Source: Youxingia wuxianensis (GTDB lineage Bacteria; Bacillota; Clostridia; Oscillospirales; Ruminococcaceae). Taken from it: a stretch of DNA of 64,000 bases. The position numbers were made by a program, and so were the translations under genes. Positions within the stretch are counted from its first letter, which is position 1. The number at the start of each line of letters is the position of its first letter. The DNA is taken from contig NZ_JACRTD010000003.1 in NCBI RefSeq assembly GCF_014385085.1, positions 186,001 to 250,000 on the forward strand. Direction: 5' to 3'. Shown here in pieces: positions 552 to 20,338 of the stretch. The notes under the pieces were generated by a model, which worked only from the letters and a program-made list of their open reading frames with translations, did not search any database and had not been told where the DNA came from.

Positions 552-587
552 GCGTCATGGATATGAAAATTAGGAGTGGTTACAAAC

Positions 588-2573
588 ATGGCAAATAAAA
601 TAAAGCTTTGTATGGGCTGTATGTCGCCGCTGTTTGATGAAAATAAATGCGGAGTATGCGGTTATGAAGCAGATACGCCCTATAGCTTGGATTTTCTGCC
701 TCCTGACAGCCTGCTTGCAGACAATTATATTGTGGGCAAGGTGTATTCCTATGACCCGGAAGGGGTATGGTACGTAGGTTATGACCAGGCAAATCAGGTA
801 CGGGTATGGCTCCGGGAATATGCCCCGGCGAATATCATCCGCCGCGACCATGAAACTTTTGAAATTATTCCTCTGGAAAGCTCCCAAGCGCAGTATAAAG
901 CTCTGCTTTCGGACTTTGAGGATCTGTGCCACTCAATACAGAGGCTGAATCCCAGCGAAAAGGTGATCCCCATTGTAGATATGTTCCGGGCGAACAATAC
1001 AACCTATGCGGTATATGCTTATATAAAAACAATTACTTTGGAAGATTTTCTTCAAAGAAGCGGTGGAAAGCTCTCTTGGCGGCATACCAAAAAACTGTTG
1101 ATGCCCTTATTCCATACCGTTTCTAATATTCATAAAACAGGGCTTATCCATCGGGGACTTTCTCCAGAGACAATTTTGTTGGATCAGTCGGGTGCTTTGT
1201 GGCTGAGTAATTTTACTATCGCGGCTGCCCGCACACATAAGAGCGAGCTTTCTGCTCAGTTGTTTGAAGGCTATGCGGCCCCGGAGCAGTATTCTCTTAA
1301 TAGTTGGCAGGGCACTTGGACGGATGTTTATGCTCTAGGAGCGGTTACCTATCGGGCAGTCGTTGGCAAAAATCCGCCGTCGGCTCAGGATCGGATCTAT
1401 GGCGATGATCTTCTGGATGCAGGCGATCTGCAGGCGGAGATGACGGAAAATACCATTTATGCGATCAATCATGCTTTAGCGGTGGAAGTGGAAGACAGAA
1501 GCCAAACGGCGGAGAGCTATATCGCCGAACTTTTGGTATCCACTACCGGCTCGGACACAGCTGTTTACACCGCCCCTGTTCCCAAACGCAGTTATGCCGG
1601 GGATACCAATGAGGTGCATCGGGATGAAATTCGCAGAGCGGTTGCTGCCCGAGAGCTGAGAGAGCAGGCGCAAGGAGCTCCTAGAAACAACGGCCGATTT
1701 GATGAATATGAGGATGGAATTGACTTGATCCCTATTCCCAACAGTTCAAAACAGACGGTAGCCGTGAAAGAAAGAAACAATCCTTCAGATAGACGTAAGA
1801 AAAAAGAAAAACGCCCGCATACTGTATTAATGGTAATTTTAGCTTTTTTGGTAGCAACCGTTTTTTTAGGCGGCGGTATGTGGTGGTTTGCCAATGCATT
1901 CCTTGGGGATTTGATCAGCCCTGATAAGGAAAAGGATAATAGCAGCGGATCAGTTAACATCGCAGGGGAAGATTTTGACAGCGAGGCATTTGCTTCCGCC
2001 GACGATAATAAAGTTCCCGGATTTATTGGAGTAACCGTATCTTCCATTAAATCCAACGAGGAGCTTCAGGCAAAATACCATTTTGAGTATGTGGAAGACT
2101 TTAACGCGGAATATGATGAAGGTGTGGTTTATGATCAGAATCCCGCCAGTGGAGCTCAGATTAACGACGGAGCTACAATCACCTTATCTGTATCAAAAGG
2201 AACAGAAAAGGTGGAAATGCCGGAAGTAGTAGATCTGGAACTGGAGGAAGCGATTAAACTGCTCAACGACCTTGAAATAGAGTACCAGGTAATTGAAGTG
2301 TTTAACGATTCTTATGAACCCGGATTAGTAGCGAGAACGGATAAAGAGGCTGGAACTATGCTGTCTAAAGGAAAAGATAAGGTTATCCTGTACACTCGGC
2401 TAATGCCGGAGGACGAACAAGAGGAAGAAGAGGAAGACCGAAAATCTTCCAGCAGTAAAAACAGCAGCAGTGAAAATTTAATAGGCAGAGAAGGTTATAT
2501 TGCTCCAAAGCCTGGCAAACCGGGCGGCTTTTATGATGAAAGCGGCAATTGGATTGTAGTATTTGATGATTAA
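588..2573 (+). CDS. membrane pseudokinase with N-terminal zinc ribbon and C-terminal PASTA repeats
   Basis: The 661-residue protein has a Cys-pair zinc-ribbon-like start (CMGC, then CGVC), a Ser/Thr-kinase fold at about 40-310, a basic linker, one membrane helix near 412-436, and two PASTA-like repeats at about 475-610 followed by an acidic, Ser-rich tail. This layout resembles PknB/PrkC kinases, which sense muropeptides outside the cell. The catalytic signatures are broken: the beta-3 Lys is Arg (LREYAP), HRD is HRG, DFG is NFT, and the glycine loop is lost. The APE-type motif (APEQY) remains. I infer a pseudokinase or scaffold. ATG at 588 is chosen over GTG at 576 because AGGAG lies at 572-576. 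Confidence 0.85.
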   Translation: MANKIKLCMGCMSPLFDENKCGVCGYEADTPYSLDFLPPDSLLADNYIVGKVYSYDPEGVWYVGYDQANQVRVWLREYAPANIIRRDHETFEIIPLESSQAQYKALLSDFEDLCHSIQRLNPSEKVIPIVDMFRANNTTYAVYAYIKTITLEDFLQRSGGKLSWRHTKKLLMPLFHTVSNIHKTGLIHRGLSPETILLDQSGALWLSNFTIAAARTHKSELSAQLFEGYAAPEQYSLNSWQGTWTDVYALGAVTYRAVVGKNPPSAQDRIYGDDLLDAGDLQAEMTENTIYAINHALAVEVEDRSQTAESYIAELLVSTTGSDTAVYTAPVPKRSYAGDTNEVHRDEIRRAVAARELREQAQGAPRNNGRFDEYEDGIDLIPIPNSSKQTVAVKERNNPSDRRKKKEKRPHTVLMVILAFLVATVFLGGGMWWFANAFLGDLISPDKEKDNSSGSVNIAGEDFDSEAFASADDNKVPGFIGVTVSSIKSNEELQAKYHFEYVEDFNAEYDEGVVYDQNPASGAQINDGATITLSVSKGTEKVEMPEVVDLELEEAIKLLNDLEIEYQVIEVFNDSYEPGLVARTDKEAGTMLSKGKDKVILYTRLMPEDEQEEEEEDRKSSSSKNSSSENLIGREGYIAPKPGKPGGFYDESGNWIVVFDD

Positions 2574-12703: not shown

Positions 12704-12721
12704 TTGTCAAAACTTTAACAA
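12704..12721 (+). promoter_or_regulatory. Rex-type operator 1 upstream of adhE
   Basis: TTGTCAAAACTTTAACAA differs from the clostridial Rex consensus TTGTTAANNNNTTAACAA at one position. Rex is the NADH-sensing repressor that controls adhE in many Firmicutes. The site lies 30 bases upstream of a second copy that overlaps the promoter. Confidence 0.75.
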
Positions 12722-12733
12722 TATGATATTATA

Positions 12734-12763
12734 TTGACAAAGAATTAACAAACAAAATAAAAT
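12734..12763 (+). promoter_or_regulatory. adhE promoter overlapped by Rex-type operator 2
   Basis: A perfect -35 TTGACA (12734-12739), an 18-base spacer and TAAAAT (12758-12763) precede adhE. The -35 is itself the start of TTGACAAAGAATTAACAA (12734-12751), which matches the Rex consensus except at two positions. A bound repressor would cover the -35 box. Confidence 0.75.
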
Positions 12764-15443: not shown

Positions 15444-15472
15444 TTGAAAAAATTCGCAAAATGTAGTATGCT
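15444..15472 (+). promoter_or_regulatory. possible promoter for the hydrogenase operon
   Basis: TTGAAA (15444-15449), a 17-base spacer and TATGCT (15467-15472) lie after adhE. A transcript from here would pass directly through the hairpin at 15495-15532, so either this promoter is attenuated or the -10, which is imperfect, is not used. Confidence 0.4.
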
Positions 15473-15494
15473 CATATCGTACTAAGTAACATTG

Positions 15495-15532
15495 AGAGCC
15501 GCATTATATTTATATAATTATGATGCGGCTCT
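15495..15532 (+). terminator. intrinsic terminator or attenuator between adhE and the hydrogenase operon
   Basis: A 10-bp stem (AGAGCCGCAT with ATGCGGCTCT) encloses an AT-rich 18-base loop and is followed by TTTTGT. It ends 27 bases before the next start codon. Confidence 0.75.
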
Positions 15533-15559
15533 TTTGTATGATGATGGAGGAAATGGTCT

Positions 15560-15805
15560 ATGGAGATTTATGTGTGTATTGGAAGTTCCTGTCACCTGAA
15601 AGGTTCTTATGCGATTATCAATGGGTTCAAGGACCTGATCGCCCAAAATCAACTGGAGGACAAAGTAAATTTAAACGCTTCCTTCTGCCTGGGCAGATGC
15701 CAGGACGGAGTTACAATCAAAATCGACGATCAGATTGTAACCGGACTTAACCCGGATAATGTAAAAGAGGTATTTGAAGAAAGGGTACTTAAGGAGATAA
15801 AATAA
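15560..15805 (+). CDS. thioredoxin-like [2Fe-2S] ferredoxin domain protein
   Basis: The 81-residue protein resembles the NuoE/HydC-type thioredoxin-fold [2Fe-2S] domain. Four cysteines sit in the expected pattern: CIGSSC near the N terminus, then CLGRC after about 35 residues. Such subunits pass electrons to or from hydrogenases and diaphorases. It overlaps the following sensory hydrogenase by one base, so it is likely its redox partner. A GGAGG site precedes the ATG. It is the first gene of a five-gene block ending at 20300. Confidence 0.88.
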   Translation: MEIYVCIGSSCHLKGSYAIINGFKDLIAQNQLEDKVNLNASFCLGRCQDGVTIKIDDQIVTGLNPDNVKEVFEERVLKEIK

Positions 15806-17499
15806 TGGACGTTTTGAGCTTAAAAAAAGCGAACTGTAAAAACTGCCATAAATGTATCCGTGCGTGTCCGGTAAAATCCATTCGTTTTGTGGATAATCAG
15901 GCAAAGATTATTACGCAGGAATGTATTTTATGCGGCCGATGCGTAGTTACCTGCCCACAGAATGCAAAACGGGTCCGCAACGACCTGACAGAGGTGATGG
16001 GGGCGATTGGTAGCGGAAAACGGGTCATCGCAAGCGTCGCGCCATCGTTTATTGCCCATTTTCCGGTAGCGGGGATAGAAGAATTTGAGACATATTTGAA
16101 ACAACTTGGTTTCTTTGCGGCCAGGGAAACTGCCCAGGGAGCGTACATTGTAAAATCGGAATATGAGAAAATGATCAAAGAGAAAAAACAGGATGTGATT
16201 ATTTCATCCTGCTGCCATACGGTGGTGACGCTGATTCAAAAGTATCATCCCATGGCAATATCGGCAATCGCGCCGGTACTTTCTCCTATGATGACACATG
16301 CCAAAATGATTAAAGAAGAATATCCTGACGCCTATGTAGTGTTTATCAGTCCTTGTATTTCTAAAAAGGACGAAATGTGCAAGGTGCCGGGGGTTGTGGA
16401 CTGTGTACTGACATTTGATGAAATGGAGCAGTGGCTGCAGAAAAAAGAGATCGTTCTTGAAAAACACAGTGTCCAGGAAGAAGAAGGGAGAGTTTCCCGT
16501 TTCTTTCCACGCACCGGCGGAATCATCGACTGTATGTACACTCAGGGTACCAATTATAAATATCTTACAGTAGATGGTATCGAAAATTGCATGGAAGCGA
16601 TCAAAGAGATTGAAAACGGAGGGCTCAAGGGTTACTTTATTGAGATGAGCGCCTGCGAGGGAAGCTGTATCAACGGTCCGTCCACCAAGGCTTATAGAGA
16701 AAATATTTTGGGAAGCAGAGTAAGGGTAAACGACTATGCCAAGCCGAAAGAAAATATCCGGGCGGACTTTGATCTGCCGTCGGTGAAGTTTAATCTTTCC
16801 CGTCAGATCCCAAGCGAATTTGTAGTGGAGCAGGAACCGCCCCAGAGCGCGATTATAGAAATCCTCGCTAAAATGGGGAAAACCAAGCCGGAGGACGAGC
16901 TTAACTGCGGGACCTGCGGTTATCCCACCTGCCGGGAAAAGGCGAAAGCGGTATATAAGGGAAAAGCGGATATTACCATGTGTCTGCCGTATATGAAGGA
17001 ACGGGCGGAGAGCTTTTCGGATAATGTATTTAACGTCAGCCCAAATGCAATTTTCGTATTGGATGACAAGCTGTGTATTCTGCAGATGAACAATGCCGCT
17101 TGCCACCTGTTTAATATCGGCAATGAAAAGGCTGTCAAAGGTTCTATGATCGTGGAGCTGCTGGATCCTACTGATTTTGAGCAGGTATTGGAAAGCGGAA
17201 ATGATATTATCGATAAAAAGATGTATCTGGCGGAATACGACAAATATGTGGAACTTTCTGTGGTTTTGGACAGCGAGCATCACTCTTTGTTTGGGATAAT
17301 GAAAGATATTACCCAGGAGCATCGGCGCAATGAGAAATACAAGGAACGCCGGGCAAAGACGATCGATATTACCGATAAGGTAGTAGAAAAACAGATGCGT
17401 ATCGTCCAGGAGATCGCATCCTTGCTGGGAGAAACTACGGCGGAGACCAAAATTGCCCTGACATCCATAAAAAGTACGGTTCTCTCGGAGGATGAATGA
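15805..17499 (+). CDS. PAS-containing sensory [FeFe] hydrogenase (group C-type)
   Basis: The 564-residue protein has two N-terminal [4Fe-4S] ferredoxin motifs (CKNCHKCIRACP; CILCGRCVVTCP), an H-cluster domain (about 70-330), a further Fe-S domain (CGTCGYPTC, then a fourth Cys about 20 residues later) and a PAS domain (about 400-500) ending in a helical output segment. H-cluster loops are present but divergent: L1 ISSCCHTVV, L2 SPCISKKDE, L3 MSACEGSCINGP, keeping all four cluster cysteines. This layout matches the sensory group C [FeFe] hydrogenases that are gene-linked to phosphatases. I infer a hydrogen or redox sensor, not a bulk catalyst. It overlaps the phosphatase gene by four bases. Confidence 0.88.
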   Translation: MDVLSLKKANCKNCHKCIRACPVKSIRFVDNQAKIITQECILCGRCVVTCPQNAKRVRNDLTEVMGAIGSGKRVIASVAPSFIAHFPVAGIEEFETYLKQLGFFAARETAQGAYIVKSEYEKMIKEKKQDVIISSCCHTVVTLIQKYHPMAISAIAPVLSPMMTHAKMIKEEYPDAYVVFISPCISKKDEMCKVPGVVDCVLTFDEMEQWLQKKEIVLEKHSVQEEEGRVSRFFPRTGGIIDCMYTQGTNYKYLTVDGIENCMEAIKEIENGGLKGYFIEMSACEGSCINGPSTKAYRENILGSRVRVNDYAKPKENIRADFDLPSVKFNLSRQIPSEFVVEQEPPQSAIIEILAKMGKTKPEDELNCGTCGYPTCREKAKAVYKGKADITMCLPYMKERAESFSDNVFNVSPNAIFVLDDKLCILQMNNAACHLFNIGNEKAVKGSMIVELLDPTDFEQVLESGNDIIDKKMYLAEYDKYVELSVVLDSEHHSLFGIMKDITQEHRRNEKYKERRAKTIDITDKVVEKQMRIVQEIASLLGETTAETKIALTSIKSTVLSEDE

Positions 17500-18671
17500 T
17501 GGATAGATTATTCATGGAAAACAGCTACATCTCCTTAAATAAGGTAGGGGAAGAGCTGTGCGGAGACCGGGTAGAAACTATGACCAGTCCCAATGGGGAT
17601 TTTACTATGGTGCTGGCAGACGGTCTGGGAAGCGGAGTGAAGGCCAATATCCTTTCCACCCTGACTTCAAAGATTATTGCCACCATGATGGAAAGCGATA
17701 TGCCAATTGAGGAATGTGTGACCACCATCGCTCAAACCCTGCCGGTATGCTCGGTGCGCGGGGTTGCCTATGCGACCTTTACGATTGTAAAGGTATATCG
17801 GAATAAAGATGTATACCTGATTCAGTATGACAATCCGGATGTGATTATGATCCGGGACGGAAAAAGCTATGATTATCCCAAGGAAGAAAAATTGATAGCG
17901 GGAAAGAAAATTTTCGAATCCCGTTTTAAGCTTCAGTTGGGAGACATGTTTATTCTGATGAGCGATGGAGTTATCAACGCCGGGGTCGGCCAGGTGCTCA
18001 ACTTTGGCTGGCAGCGGGAAAATGTACTTAATTACGCCGTGGAGCGGTATCATCCGGAGATTACTGCCAAAGCCATGGCGGGTGTGGTTTCTGACGCCTG
18101 CAAAGATTTGTATATGGGAAAACCGGGGGACGACACCACTGTGGCGGTGCTGCGTATCCGGGAACGGGAGCTGGTGAACTTGATGATCGGTCCGCCGGTC
18201 AACAAGGGCGACGATGAAAAGGTCATGGAGCTTTTCTTTTCCAAAGAGGGCAAGAAGATTGTATGCGGGGGAACCACTTCCACCATCGTAAGCAAATATC
18301 TGGGCAAAGAGATTAAAACCAAGATTGATTACTTCGATCCGGATATTCCCCCTATCGGCTATATCGAAGGAGTGGATCTGGTCACCGAAGGGGTGCTTAC
18401 CATGGGCAGGGTAGTGGAAATTGCCCGGCAGTACGCATCCAATTCTGATTCCAGCTGTGAATGGATTGGAAAGAAGGATGGAGCGTCGCTGATCGCTCAG
18501 CTTCTGTTTGAGGAGGCCACCGACGTAAACCTATTTGTAGGCAGGGCAATGAATCCGGCCCATCAAAATCCAAACATGCCCATTGATTTAAGCATTAAGC
18601 TGCGGCTGATTGACGATCTGGCGGAGTATCTTGAAAAGATGGGAAAACATGTGAAAGTAAGTTATTTTTAA
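17496..18671 (+). CDS. SpoIIE-family PP2C-type protein phosphatase
   Basis: The 391-residue protein has a PP2C/SpoIIE phosphatase domain in its first about 225 residues. The metal-binding aspartates are visible in VLADGLGSGVKAN, LMSDGVINAG and GDDTTVAVL. The remaining about 165 residues form a second region that I do not recognise; it has a glycine-rich CGGTTSTIV segment. Its coupling to the PAS hydrogenase (ATGA overlap) suggests that the hydrogenase senses a redox cue and controls this phosphatase. The target phosphoprotein is not encoded nearby. It is followed after 41 bases by a second hydrogenase-type gene. Confidence 0.87.
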   Translation: MMDRLFMENSYISLNKVGEELCGDRVETMTSPNGDFTMVLADGLGSGVKANILSTLTSKIIATMMESDMPIEECVTTIAQTLPVCSVRGVAYATFTIVKVYRNKDVYLIQYDNPDVIMIRDGKSYDYPKEEKLIAGKKIFESRFKLQLGDMFILMSDGVINAGVGQVLNFGWQRENVLNYAVERYHPEITAKAMAGVVSDACKDLYMGKPGDDTTVAVLRIRERELVNLMIGPPVNKGDDEKVMELFFSKEGKKIVCGGTTSTIVSKYLGKEIKTKIDYFDPDIPPIGYIEGVDLVTEGVLTMGRVVEIARQYASNSDSSCEWIGKKDGASLIAQLLFEEATDVNLFVGRAMNPAHQNPNMPIDLSIKLRLIDDLAEYLEKMGKHVKVSYF

Positions 18672-18712
18672 TTTTGATAGCGGCGGGGTCGCCCTTAGAT
18701 ACGGGAGGAACT

Positions 18713-20140
18713 ATGAGAAATTTTGATACTAACGTACAGCTTTTAAAATATAATGTTTTGAAAGGCGTGGCCAAACACGCCTATGAAGGGACCTTGAGAG
18801 AGTGTTACCACGACATTCCCATAGAGATTATCCCAGGACCGGAACCGACCATGCGCTGTTGTATTTACAAAGAACGGGCGATTGTAAGCGAACGGATAAA
18901 ATTGGCTATGGGAGGGGATAAAAACAATCCCAATGTCATTGAAGTGCTGAATATCGCTTGTGATGAATGTCCAGTCAACCGTTATACGGTAGGGGAGGCT
19001 TGCCGCGGGTGTATCGCCCATCGCTGCCAGCATGTATGCCCGGTGGGAGCCATTGAAGTTCACGGCACAAAAGCGCATATCAATCCAGATAAATGTATTG
19101 AGTGCGGCAGATGCGCCAGCGTATGCCCTTACAGCGCGATTATAAAGTCGGTTCGTCCCTGTGAGAATGCATGTAAAATTAACGCTATTAAAATGAACGA
19201 TGAGAAAAAAGCTCAGATTGACAATGAAAAATGTATCTCGTGCGGCGCCTGTGTCTACCAGTGCCCGTTCGGCGCCATTGTGGATAAGTCCTTTATTTTG
19301 GATGCGATCAATATTTTAAAAGAGTCTCAGGATAATAAAAAATATCGGGTCTATGCGGTCATTGCCCCATCGATTTCCAGCCAGTTTGCATACGCTAAAA
19401 TTGGGCAGGTAGTAACCGGATTGAAGCATCTGGGCTTTCACAGTGTGGTAGAAGCGGCGTTAGGCGCGGATATGGTGGCGTATCAGGAAGCTTTGGAGCT
19501 GAAAGAAAAAGGATTTTTGACCTCCTCCTGCTGTCCGGCGTTTGTACAGTACATTAAGACTGCGTTTCCAAAAATGGTAGAGCATATTTCTCATAATCCA
19601 TCCCCCATGGTAGCGATCGCACAGTTTATTAAAAAATTGGATCCGGGAGCGAAAACCATCTTTATCGGGCCGTGTACCGCCAAAAAGATGGAATTTCAGC
19701 AGGAACCTACCCACGCTATCGATTGTGTTATTACCTTTGAAGAACTGCAGGCGTTGCTGGACTGTCGTGATATCACCATTGAAAATTTAGAAGAGGGCGT
19801 ATTGGATAACGCTTCCTATTATGGAAGAATTTTTGCCCGCAGCGGCGGCCTTTCGGACGCGGTGGCACAGGCGTTGAAAGAACATGGGATTACACCCCAG
19901 GAGTTTGAGGCGAAGCCGGTGGCCTGCGACGGAATAGAGCAGTGTAAAATCGCCTTGCTCAAAGCGGGGAAAAATATGCTGGACGCAAACTTTATTGAGG
20001 GTATGGCTTGTGTTGGCGGCTGTATTGGCGGCGCGGCATGTATTACCCATGGACCCAAGGATAAAAATGAAGTGAATAAGTATGGCGAGCTGGCAAAAGA
20101 AAAGACCATTTCCGACGCCGTGGCCATTACCAGAATGTAG
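18713..20140 (+). CDS. [FeFe] hydrogenase, monomeric group B-type
   Basis: The 475-residue protein carries many N-terminal Fe-S cysteine motifs (CRGCIAHRCQHVCP, CIECGRCASVCP, CENAC, CISCGACVYQCP) and a full H-cluster domain. The loops are L1 TSSCCPAF, L2 GPCTAKKME and L3 MACVGGCIGGA, retaining the four cluster cysteines. The architecture fits the poorly studied group B [FeFe] hydrogenases, thought to be ferredoxin-linked. The start at 18713 has GGGAGGA just upstream; a frame extension back to 18674 lacks a ribosome site. It is the probable effector partner of the upstream sensory hydrogenase and phosphatase. Confidence 0.9.
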   Translation: MRNFDTNVQLLKYNVLKGVAKHAYEGTLRECYHDIPIEIIPGPEPTMRCCIYKERAIVSERIKLAMGGDKNNPNVIEVLNIACDECPVNRYTVGEACRGCIAHRCQHVCPVGAIEVHGTKAHINPDKCIECGRCASVCPYSAIIKSVRPCENACKINAIKMNDEKKAQIDNEKCISCGACVYQCPFGAIVDKSFILDAINILKESQDNKKYRVYAVIAPSISSQFAYAKIGQVVTGLKHLGFHSVVEAALGADMVAYQEALELKEKGFLTSSCCPAFVQYIKTAFPKMVEHISHNPSPMVAIAQFIKKLDPGAKTIFIGPCTAKKMEFQQEPTHAIDCVITFEELQALLDCRDITIENLEEGVLDNASYYGRIFARSGGLSDAVAQALKEHGITPQEFEAKPVACDGIEQCKIALLKAGKNMLDANFIEGMACVGGCIGGAACITHGPKDKNEVNKYGELAKEKTISDAVAITRM

Positions 20141-20153
20141 GGAGCTGTTTGTT

Positions 20154-20300
20154 ATGGCATGCGAACATGTAAAGGTATGTCCCTGTACAAATAGAGACTG
20201 CGAATATAACCGGCATTGCTGCAAGTGTGTGGCTTATCATCGGGACAGGGGAGATCTTCCCATCTGTCTGAGAAACCTTAAGAAAAAAGAAAAGGAATAA
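20154..20300 (+). CDS. small Cys-rich protein (DUF6485-like)
   Basis: The 48-residue cytosolic protein contains eight cysteines, spaced CEHVKVCPC, DCEY, HCCKC and ICLRN, followed by a Lys-rich end. The pattern resembles the small Cys-rich DUF6485 proteins of anaerobes; this assignment is from memory. It probably binds a metal or an Fe-S cluster. It starts 13 bases after the group B-type hydrogenase, behind a GGGAG site, so it likely belongs to that operon. A perfect hairpin follows directly. A longer frame from 20082 overlaps the hydrogenase and is not supported. Confidence 0.75.
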   Translation: MACEHVKVCPCTNRDCEYNRHCCKCVAYHRDRGDLPICLRNLKKKEKE

Positions 20301-20307
20301 GATCCGT

Positions 20308-20338
20308 GTCTCCCAAAAGGCCGTTCCTTTTGGGAGAC
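20308..20338 (+). terminator. terminator-like hairpin after the hydrogenase operon
   Basis: A perfect 13-bp stem (GTCTCCCAAAAGG) with a 5-base loop. The T tail is weak (TGCCTTTA), so termination may be partial and rbsD may be reached by read-through. Confidence 0.7.

Follow-up and report, generated by a model that had tools for sequence, protein, structure and literature searches.

The hfsABCD operon of Thermoanaerobacterium saccharolyticum, Thermoanaerobacterium thermosaccharolyticum and Clostridium thermocellum encodes a PAS hydrogenase, a serine-phosphatase-like protein and a ferredoxin-linked hydrogenase, and is tied to adhE output, according to the accounts in PMC5707799 and PMC11837493. 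The HydS and HydA2 proteins of Ruminococcus albus have been described as the counterparts of HfsB and HfsD, respectively (PMC11837493, PMC13277313). Here we analyze a window of 64,000 nucleotides (nt) from Youxingia wuxianensis (contig NZ_JACRTD010000003.1, positions 186,001 to 250,000), in which a compact run of genes on one strand proves to be an hfsABCD (hydS-hydA2) operon. The system is known; the host is new.

Systems of this kind were called little studied in an earlier reading made from the window sequence alone (the sequence-only reading), a description that the T. saccharolyticum work overturns, since single deletions of hfsA, hfsB, hfsC and hfsD have been published together with fermentation profiles, RNA-seq and enzyme assays (PMC5707799). 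As reported there, deletion of hfsA or hfsB increased the ethanol yield by a factor of about 1.8 and adhE transcript levels two- to three-fold, and no rise in ethanol or adhE followed deletion of hfsC, hfsD or the whole operon. The same source gives slightly lowered hfsD mRNA in the hfsC deletion and increased hydrogenase activity in the hfsB deletion. In the hfsA and hfsB deletions, adhE and rex mRNA correlated with the high-ethanol state and NADH-alcohol dehydrogenase (NADH-ADH) activity rose without a rise in NADH-aldehyde dehydrogenase (NADH-ALDH) activity, for which its authors raise possible post-transcriptional control (PMC5707799). For T. thermosaccharolyticum lacking hfsABCD, addition of hfsD alone is described as giving high ethanol in a manner that needs hydAB and nfnAB (PMC11837493). 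In R. albus, co-culture with an H2 consumer was accompanied by a 111-fold drop of an eight-gene cluster (PMC6776011) and a 90-fold drop of HydA2 (PMC10838669), and a flow from H2 or redox state to the PAS hydrogenase and on to the phosphatase has been put forward as a hypothesis for that cluster, whose HfsB relative was classed as group C (PMC6776011).

We assign the window run to hfsABCD because of its matches to R. albus and the equation of HydS with HfsB and of HydA2 with HfsD in the Thermoanaerobacterium papers. A plasmid search returned three records, including the R. albus 7 locus on pRUMAL01, in which adhE, a 2Fe-2S protein gene, hydS, a SpoIIE phosphatase gene and hydA2 follow the order of the window, with identities of 47% for AdhE, 43-46% for HfsA, 48% for HfsB, 54% for HfsC and 65% for HfsD. 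The annotated order on the plasmid is LysR, rex, adhE, phosphotransferase, two 2Fe-2S genes, PAS hydrogenase, SpoIIE phosphatase and a 4Fe-4S protein that is the HydA2 counterpart by BLAST. The LysR, Rex, APH-type phosphotransferase and second 2Fe-2S genes are thus extras of R. albus, and no relatives of its Rex, LysR and kinase families were found in the 64-kb window. The ferredoxin-only hydrogenase of R. albus is listed as group A1 in PMC6776011, whereas NCBIfam places the 65% identical HfsD of the window in group B1. Equivalence with the Thermoanaerobacterium and C. thermocellum operons is by the papers' descriptions, not by sequence comparison, and includes the same gene order; in the window, unlike in those operons, adhE physically adjoins the hfs genes.

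The sequence-only reading had listed five overlapping or closely spaced genes for a [2Fe-2S] thioredoxin-like protein, a PAS-bearing group C-type [FeFe] hydrogenase, a SpoIIE-type phosphatase, a group B-type [FeFe] hydrogenase and a tiny Cys-rich protein. All five open reading frames (ORFs) are packed in one run, and searches of Pfam and NCBIfam bore out the families of the first four: a match to the C-terminal half of the PF01257 profile, H-cluster ligands with a PF04060 cluster and a PAS domain, a PF07228 domain, and a score above the curated TIGR04105 cut-off, respectively (Table 1). Adjacent genes share 1 nt at hfsA/hfsB (TAATG) and 4 nt at hfsB/hfsC (ATGA). Absent from the block as first drawn, yet relevant to the locus, is adhE, directly 5′ of the hfs genes; its linkage, with candidate Rex-like operators, is a trait of some hfs members and not of all.

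To place this arrangement among its relatives, we combined 45 loci with a related HfsC from species genomes, 66 loci fetched from 67 HfsC places in 65 of the 245 genomes of the closest relative's order (one fragment was left out), the three plasmid records and the window. Removal of three duplicates (L129, L106 and L101) reduced these 115 loci to 112. The loci come from related lineages, so that counts are not independent; gene calls are ORF-based, LysR, Rex and similar labels were assigned by BLAST at an E-value of 1e-6, and an operon-like run denotes genes on the same strand with gaps below 300 bases. Because hfsB directly preceded hfsC in 109 of the 112 distinct loci, with overlap of the two genes in 81 of these 109, we do not attribute the arrangement to chance, and HfsB and HfsC look like the conserved unit. 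The runs contained hfsB in 109 loci, hfsA in 96, hfsD in 73, a gene for an APH-fold kinase in 35, LysR in 28, full-length adhE in 26, Rex in 24 and an FlK-like thioesterase in nine, with bifurcating-hydrogenase, ldh and nfnB-like genes in four each. Presence of hfsD could be judged in the 102 loci whose sequence continues for over 1500 bases 3′ of hfsC, contigs of metagenome-assembled genomes ending early; it was in the run in 69 and missing from 33, of which 32 have hfsB, and it is an optional member of hfs loci. Both closest relatives, Marasmitruncus and Anaerotruncus sp. G3, have an hfs locus without hfsD, and no hfsD orthologue was found in either genome (best matches 41% and 39%). In Marasmitruncus, hfsABC precedes an rpiR-HI0933-cmk-plsC-ispH-type run, as in the window, and adhE, hfsD, the Cys-rich ORF and rbsD therefore flank a separable hfsABC core.

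HfsB of the window has the layout expected of a sensory hydrogenase of this class, with two N-terminal [4Fe-4S] clusters, an H-cluster domain, a C-terminal [4Fe-4S] cluster (PF04060) and a PAS domain, and the sixteen presumed cluster-ligand Cys residues are kept in 43 of 43 HfsB sequences. The window protein scores 204.1 bits against TIGR04105, under the cut-off of 450. TmHydS of Thermotoga maritima likewise combines an H-cluster domain with PAS. It has Ala (A131) at the proton-transfer position (PMC10055695), whereas HfsB has Cys there in 40 of 43 sequences (the window and 39 of 42 relatives). The third H-cluster motif carries Ser in both (S267 in TmHydS and S282 in the window, the matching of positions being our own reading), and across the HfsB set this position is Ser in 32 sequences, Asn in 10 and Trp in one. 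Residue 182 of the window protein, in the second H-cluster motif, is Ser; 42 of the 43 sequences have Gly.

HfsC shares with the SpoIIE/RsbX-type PP2C phosphatases a common catalytic fold and conserved Asp residues, which are invariant in the aligned HfsC sequences, and in the structure analysis (36 of 42 aligned HfsC rows) its catalytic domain was nearest in fold to SpoIIE-type phosphatases. We infer that HfsC acts as a protein phosphatase. It differs from the SpoIIE/RsbX type in that the protein begins with the catalytic domain and has its own C-terminal alpha/beta domain (about residues 223-391), which is conserved and without a Pfam match. None of the papers we found on hfs or hydS systems names a substrate or target of HfsC.

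The overlaps and short gaps suggest that hfsA to hfsD form one transcription unit. Each of the two promoter-like sites before adhE begins within a Rex-operator-like site. Counted over all 64 kb, sites of this kind with up to 3 mismatches are no more frequent than expected by chance, with 8 matches against a shuffle mean of 4.8 and 13 of 100 shuffles reaching 8. In the surveyed loci, 25 of 156 intergenic stretches preceding an hfsA, hfsB, adhE or kinase gene of the runs held a Rex-like site with up to 2 mismatches, versus 8 of 482 control intergenic stretches from the same loci (Fisher p 2e-10, related loci not being independent; mean GC content 0.43 and 0.44), or in 24 of 102 when counted by locus. 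Between adhE and hfsA stands a strong hairpin, which could be an adhE terminator or an hfs attenuator; because of it, adhE and hfs are perhaps only partly co-transcribed. Neither this hairpin nor the one 3′ of the run is in the list from our terminator scan, which had a loop limit of 8. A sequence resembling the promoter-like site just 5′ of this hairpin was also seen, by eye, in the leaders of two other loci (L001 and L002).

Table 1. Genes and candidate signals of the adhE-hfs region, in window coordinates.
Feature	Position	Strand	Evidence or remark
Rex-operator-like site	12704..12721	+	1 mismatch to TTGTTAANNNNTTAACAA; overlaps promoter-like first hexamer at 12704
Second Rex-operator-like site	12734..12751	+	2 mismatches; overlaps promoter-like TTGACA-18-TAAAAT, 12734-12763
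adhE, bifunctional acetaldehyde/alcohol dehydrogenase, 872 aa	12798..15416	+	NF010378, 1411.5 bits (cut-off 951)
Promoter-like TTGAAA-17-TATGCT	15444..15472	+	single consensus match, weak by itself
Strong hairpin, then short T-rich stretch	15494..15533	+	-24.8 kcal/mol for the stretch, z -5.5; between promoter-like site and hfsA
hfsA, thioredoxin-like [2Fe-2S] protein, 81 aa	15560..15805	+	PF01257, 37.2 bits, C-terminal half of profile only
hfsB/hydS, group C-type [FeFe] hydrogenase	15805..17499	+	PF02906, 164.4 bits; ferredoxin-type clusters, PF04060, PAS
hfsC, SpoIIE/PP2C phosphatase with C-terminal alpha/beta domain	17496..18671	+	PF07228, residues 33-221
hfsD/hydA2, group B1-type [FeFe] hydrogenase	18713..20140	+	TIGR04105, 565.8 bits (cut-off 450); start probable
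Cys-rich ORF, 48 aa with 8 Cys	20154..20300	+	DUF6485-like, under cut-off; start likely
Hairpin 3′ of the run, possible terminator	20308..20338	+	-25 kcal/mol for the stretch, z -4.35; no long T run

Translation of hfsD probably starts at the ATG at 18713, behind a GGAGG ribosome-binding site; a TTG at 18674 was disfavoured. The Cys-rich ORF likely starts at its ATG at 20154, and a 72-residue form was set aside for the 48-residue one. The ORF of the sequence-only reading is present, and its place in a conserved operon did not emerge: it scored 18.1 bits against DUF6485 (PF20095), below the gathering cut-off of 24, it had no BLAST match in any of 45 related loci, and a word-based protein search, which has little sensitivity at 48 residues, gave no candidate. 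About 10 kb 5′ of adhE, at window positions 576-2573, is a gene for a Ser/Thr protein kinase with PASTA repeats.

Several hfs runs of other loci carry further genes. A lactate/malate dehydrogenase gene is in the run in L082 (10588-11535), L086 (9747-10694), L091 (6667-7614) and L123, in the first three between hfsC and hfsD; the label rests on Pfam for L082 and L086 and on BLAST for L091 and L123. Electron-bifurcating HydB-/HydA-like genes were seen in L086 (2716-6289), L087 (7544-11127), L039 and L121 (Pfam check for L086), and the runs of L086 and L087 also carry the APH-fold kinase. An nfnB-like gene is present in L083 (4438-6723, just 5′ of the kinase; Pfam check for this locus), L087, L128 and L135, accompanied in three by an nfnA-like gene, and in the nine loci with an FlK-like hotdog thioesterase gene, such as L020 (6826-7338, the one checked by Pfam), it lies between hfsA and hfsB.

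We think it fairly probable that the hfs operon is a hydrogen/ferredoxin redox-sensing module acting on the hydrogen/ethanol branch of fermentation through a chain from HfsB to HfsC. In such a chain, HfsB, with its complete set of cluster ligands, would read H2 or reduced ferredoxin, and HfsA would probably pass or buffer electrons to it. The state of the clusters would alter the PAS end of HfsB and thereby control the neighbour-encoded HfsC, which would dephosphorylate a Ser/Thr protein encoded elsewhere and so set the output of adhE and of HfsD, the presumed ferredoxin-dependent H2-evolving enzyme, with Rex supplying NADH control at the adhE promoter. As to the sign of control, HfsB may be a brake released by high H2, which fits both the T. 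saccharolyticum deletions and the R. albus co-cultures. Of this proposal, the analysis shows directly the gene content and order, conservation, intact active-site residues and Rex-like sites. The flow drawn in the sequence-only reading, from H2 or ferredoxin redox state through the PAS protein and the phosphatase to a target, coincides with the published R. albus hypothesis and fits the conservation; its last step, dependence on the phosphatase, is in doubt.

Several observations weigh against our proposal. HfsC is not needed for the high-ethanol state of T. thermosaccharolyticum, because hfsD alone suffices there with hfsABC gone (PMC11837493), and the hfsC deletion phenotype in T. saccharolyticum is perhaps polar, because hfsD mRNA was slightly lowered (PMC5707799). 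HfsB is without an output domain, its contact with HfsC is presumed, and no recurrent HfsC target was found in the hfs neighbourhoods of the 112 loci. The adhE link is common and not general, since in the one order surveyed only 15 of the 67 hfsC places have adhE on their strand at a distance of up to 10 kb. Finally, HfsB is possibly also a working hydrogenase, because it keeps the Cys at the proton-transfer position, unlike TmHydS.

One rival explanation is that HfsB is mainly a metabolic partner or inhibitor of HfsD, through shared ferredoxin or subunit exchange, with ethanol following redox balance and HfsC a minor modulator. We give this a real, if clearly minority, chance. It accommodates the effect of hfsD without hfsABC and its need for hydAB and nfnAB (PMC11837493), the increased hydrogenase activity upon hfsB deletion (PMC5707799), the complete presumed ligands and prevalent proton-transfer Cys of HfsB, and the finding that 4 of the 112 hfs runs include nfnB-like genes and 4 include hydB/hydA genes; it sits less well with the 32 of 102 testable loci that have hfsB and hfsC together without hfsD and with the tracking of high ethanol by adhE and rex mRNA upon hfsA or hfsB deletion (PMC5707799). 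RsbU, RsbX and SpoIIE dephosphorylate STAS anti-sigma antagonists, and the nearness in fold of HfsC to SpoIIE-type phosphatases would suit classical partner switching, in which HfsC acts on an unlinked STAS antagonist and a sigma factor reads the signal. We consider this unlikely, given that the 31 unlabelled families recurring in the runs of at least 2 of the 112 loci, a set read by eye with a few families scanned against Pfam, included none that we could recognise as STAS, anti-sigma kinase or sigma genes, single-locus families and unlinked genes lying outside that check.

The APH-fold kinase raises a different possibility, namely a kinase-phosphatase switch in which the kinase opposes HfsC on a common substrate, AdhE or another fermentation dehydrogenase. 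In the 245 genomes, the kinase (PF01636) has 85 places in 73 genomes (E up to 1e-40) and adhE 89 places in 87 genomes (E up to 1e-120). Of the 67 hfsC places, 29 have a kinase gene on their strand at a distance of up to 10 kb, always 5′ of hfsC, and 52 of the 85 kinase places have adhE within 1.5 kb, 39 of these away from hfs. Sorted by neighbour, 13 kinase places have both adhE and hfs close by, 16 have hfs alone, 39 have adhE alone and 17 have neither, the last group speaking against the switch. Genomes with both hfsC and kinase number 40 versus 19.4 expected, uncorrected for kinship. Mapped on a quick HfsC tree (112 rows, 109 of them different; 3 of 115 rows with HfsC below 300 residues dropped, duplicates kept, 12 rows without a kinase state), the kinase label has to change 12 times, 3 or more of these on well-supported branches, against a shuffled mean of 28.1, and is thus clustered. 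The rise of NADH-ADH without NADH-ALDH in the T. saccharolyticum deletions is also consistent with such a switch (PMC5707799). The window itself, by contrast, falls in a clade outside the kinase-bearing part of the tree, the 64-kb window has no kinase match and so does not belong to the kinase-bearing hfs variant, its closest relatives lack the kinase at the locus, and none of 12 window-type adhE genes has a kinase within 1.5 kb; for these reasons the explanation applies to relatives and not directly to the window. Small molecules are frequent substrates of APH-fold kinases, and the substrate is not deducible from gene neighbourhood. A Marasmitruncus copy beside another adhE (L049, 7955-8704) has Asn at both presumed catalytic Asp positions and is a possible pseudokinase. 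Zheng and colleagues are said to have placed hydS and hydA2, in 2014, in one transcriptional unit with aldehyde/alcohol dehydrogenase, Ser/Thr kinase, phosphatase and redox-sensing repressor genes; if so, the R. albus kinase link is already published. Overall, the switch seems to us distinctly unlikely, and we hold equally improbable a more specific form of it, in which the adhE-linked kinase would phosphorylate AdhE, or another electron-sink dehydrogenase such as the Ldh encoded in some hfs operons, and HfsC, gated by HfsB and docking via its C-terminal domain, would reverse this at high H2 or reduced ferredoxin. If true, fermentation products would be set by protein phosphorylation under a hydrogen-sensing metal cluster.

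The way in which fermenters divide their output between hydrogen and ethanol determines what they supply to methanogens and how efficient they are as biofuel producers. The survey helps to focus the search for the HfsC substrate, with HfsB-HfsC as the apparent conserved unit, HfsD as optional, and Rex, LysR and the APH-fold kinase, the last also paired with adhE, as the recurrent extra regulators, and the conserved extra domain that HfsC has of its own is a candidate for mutation.

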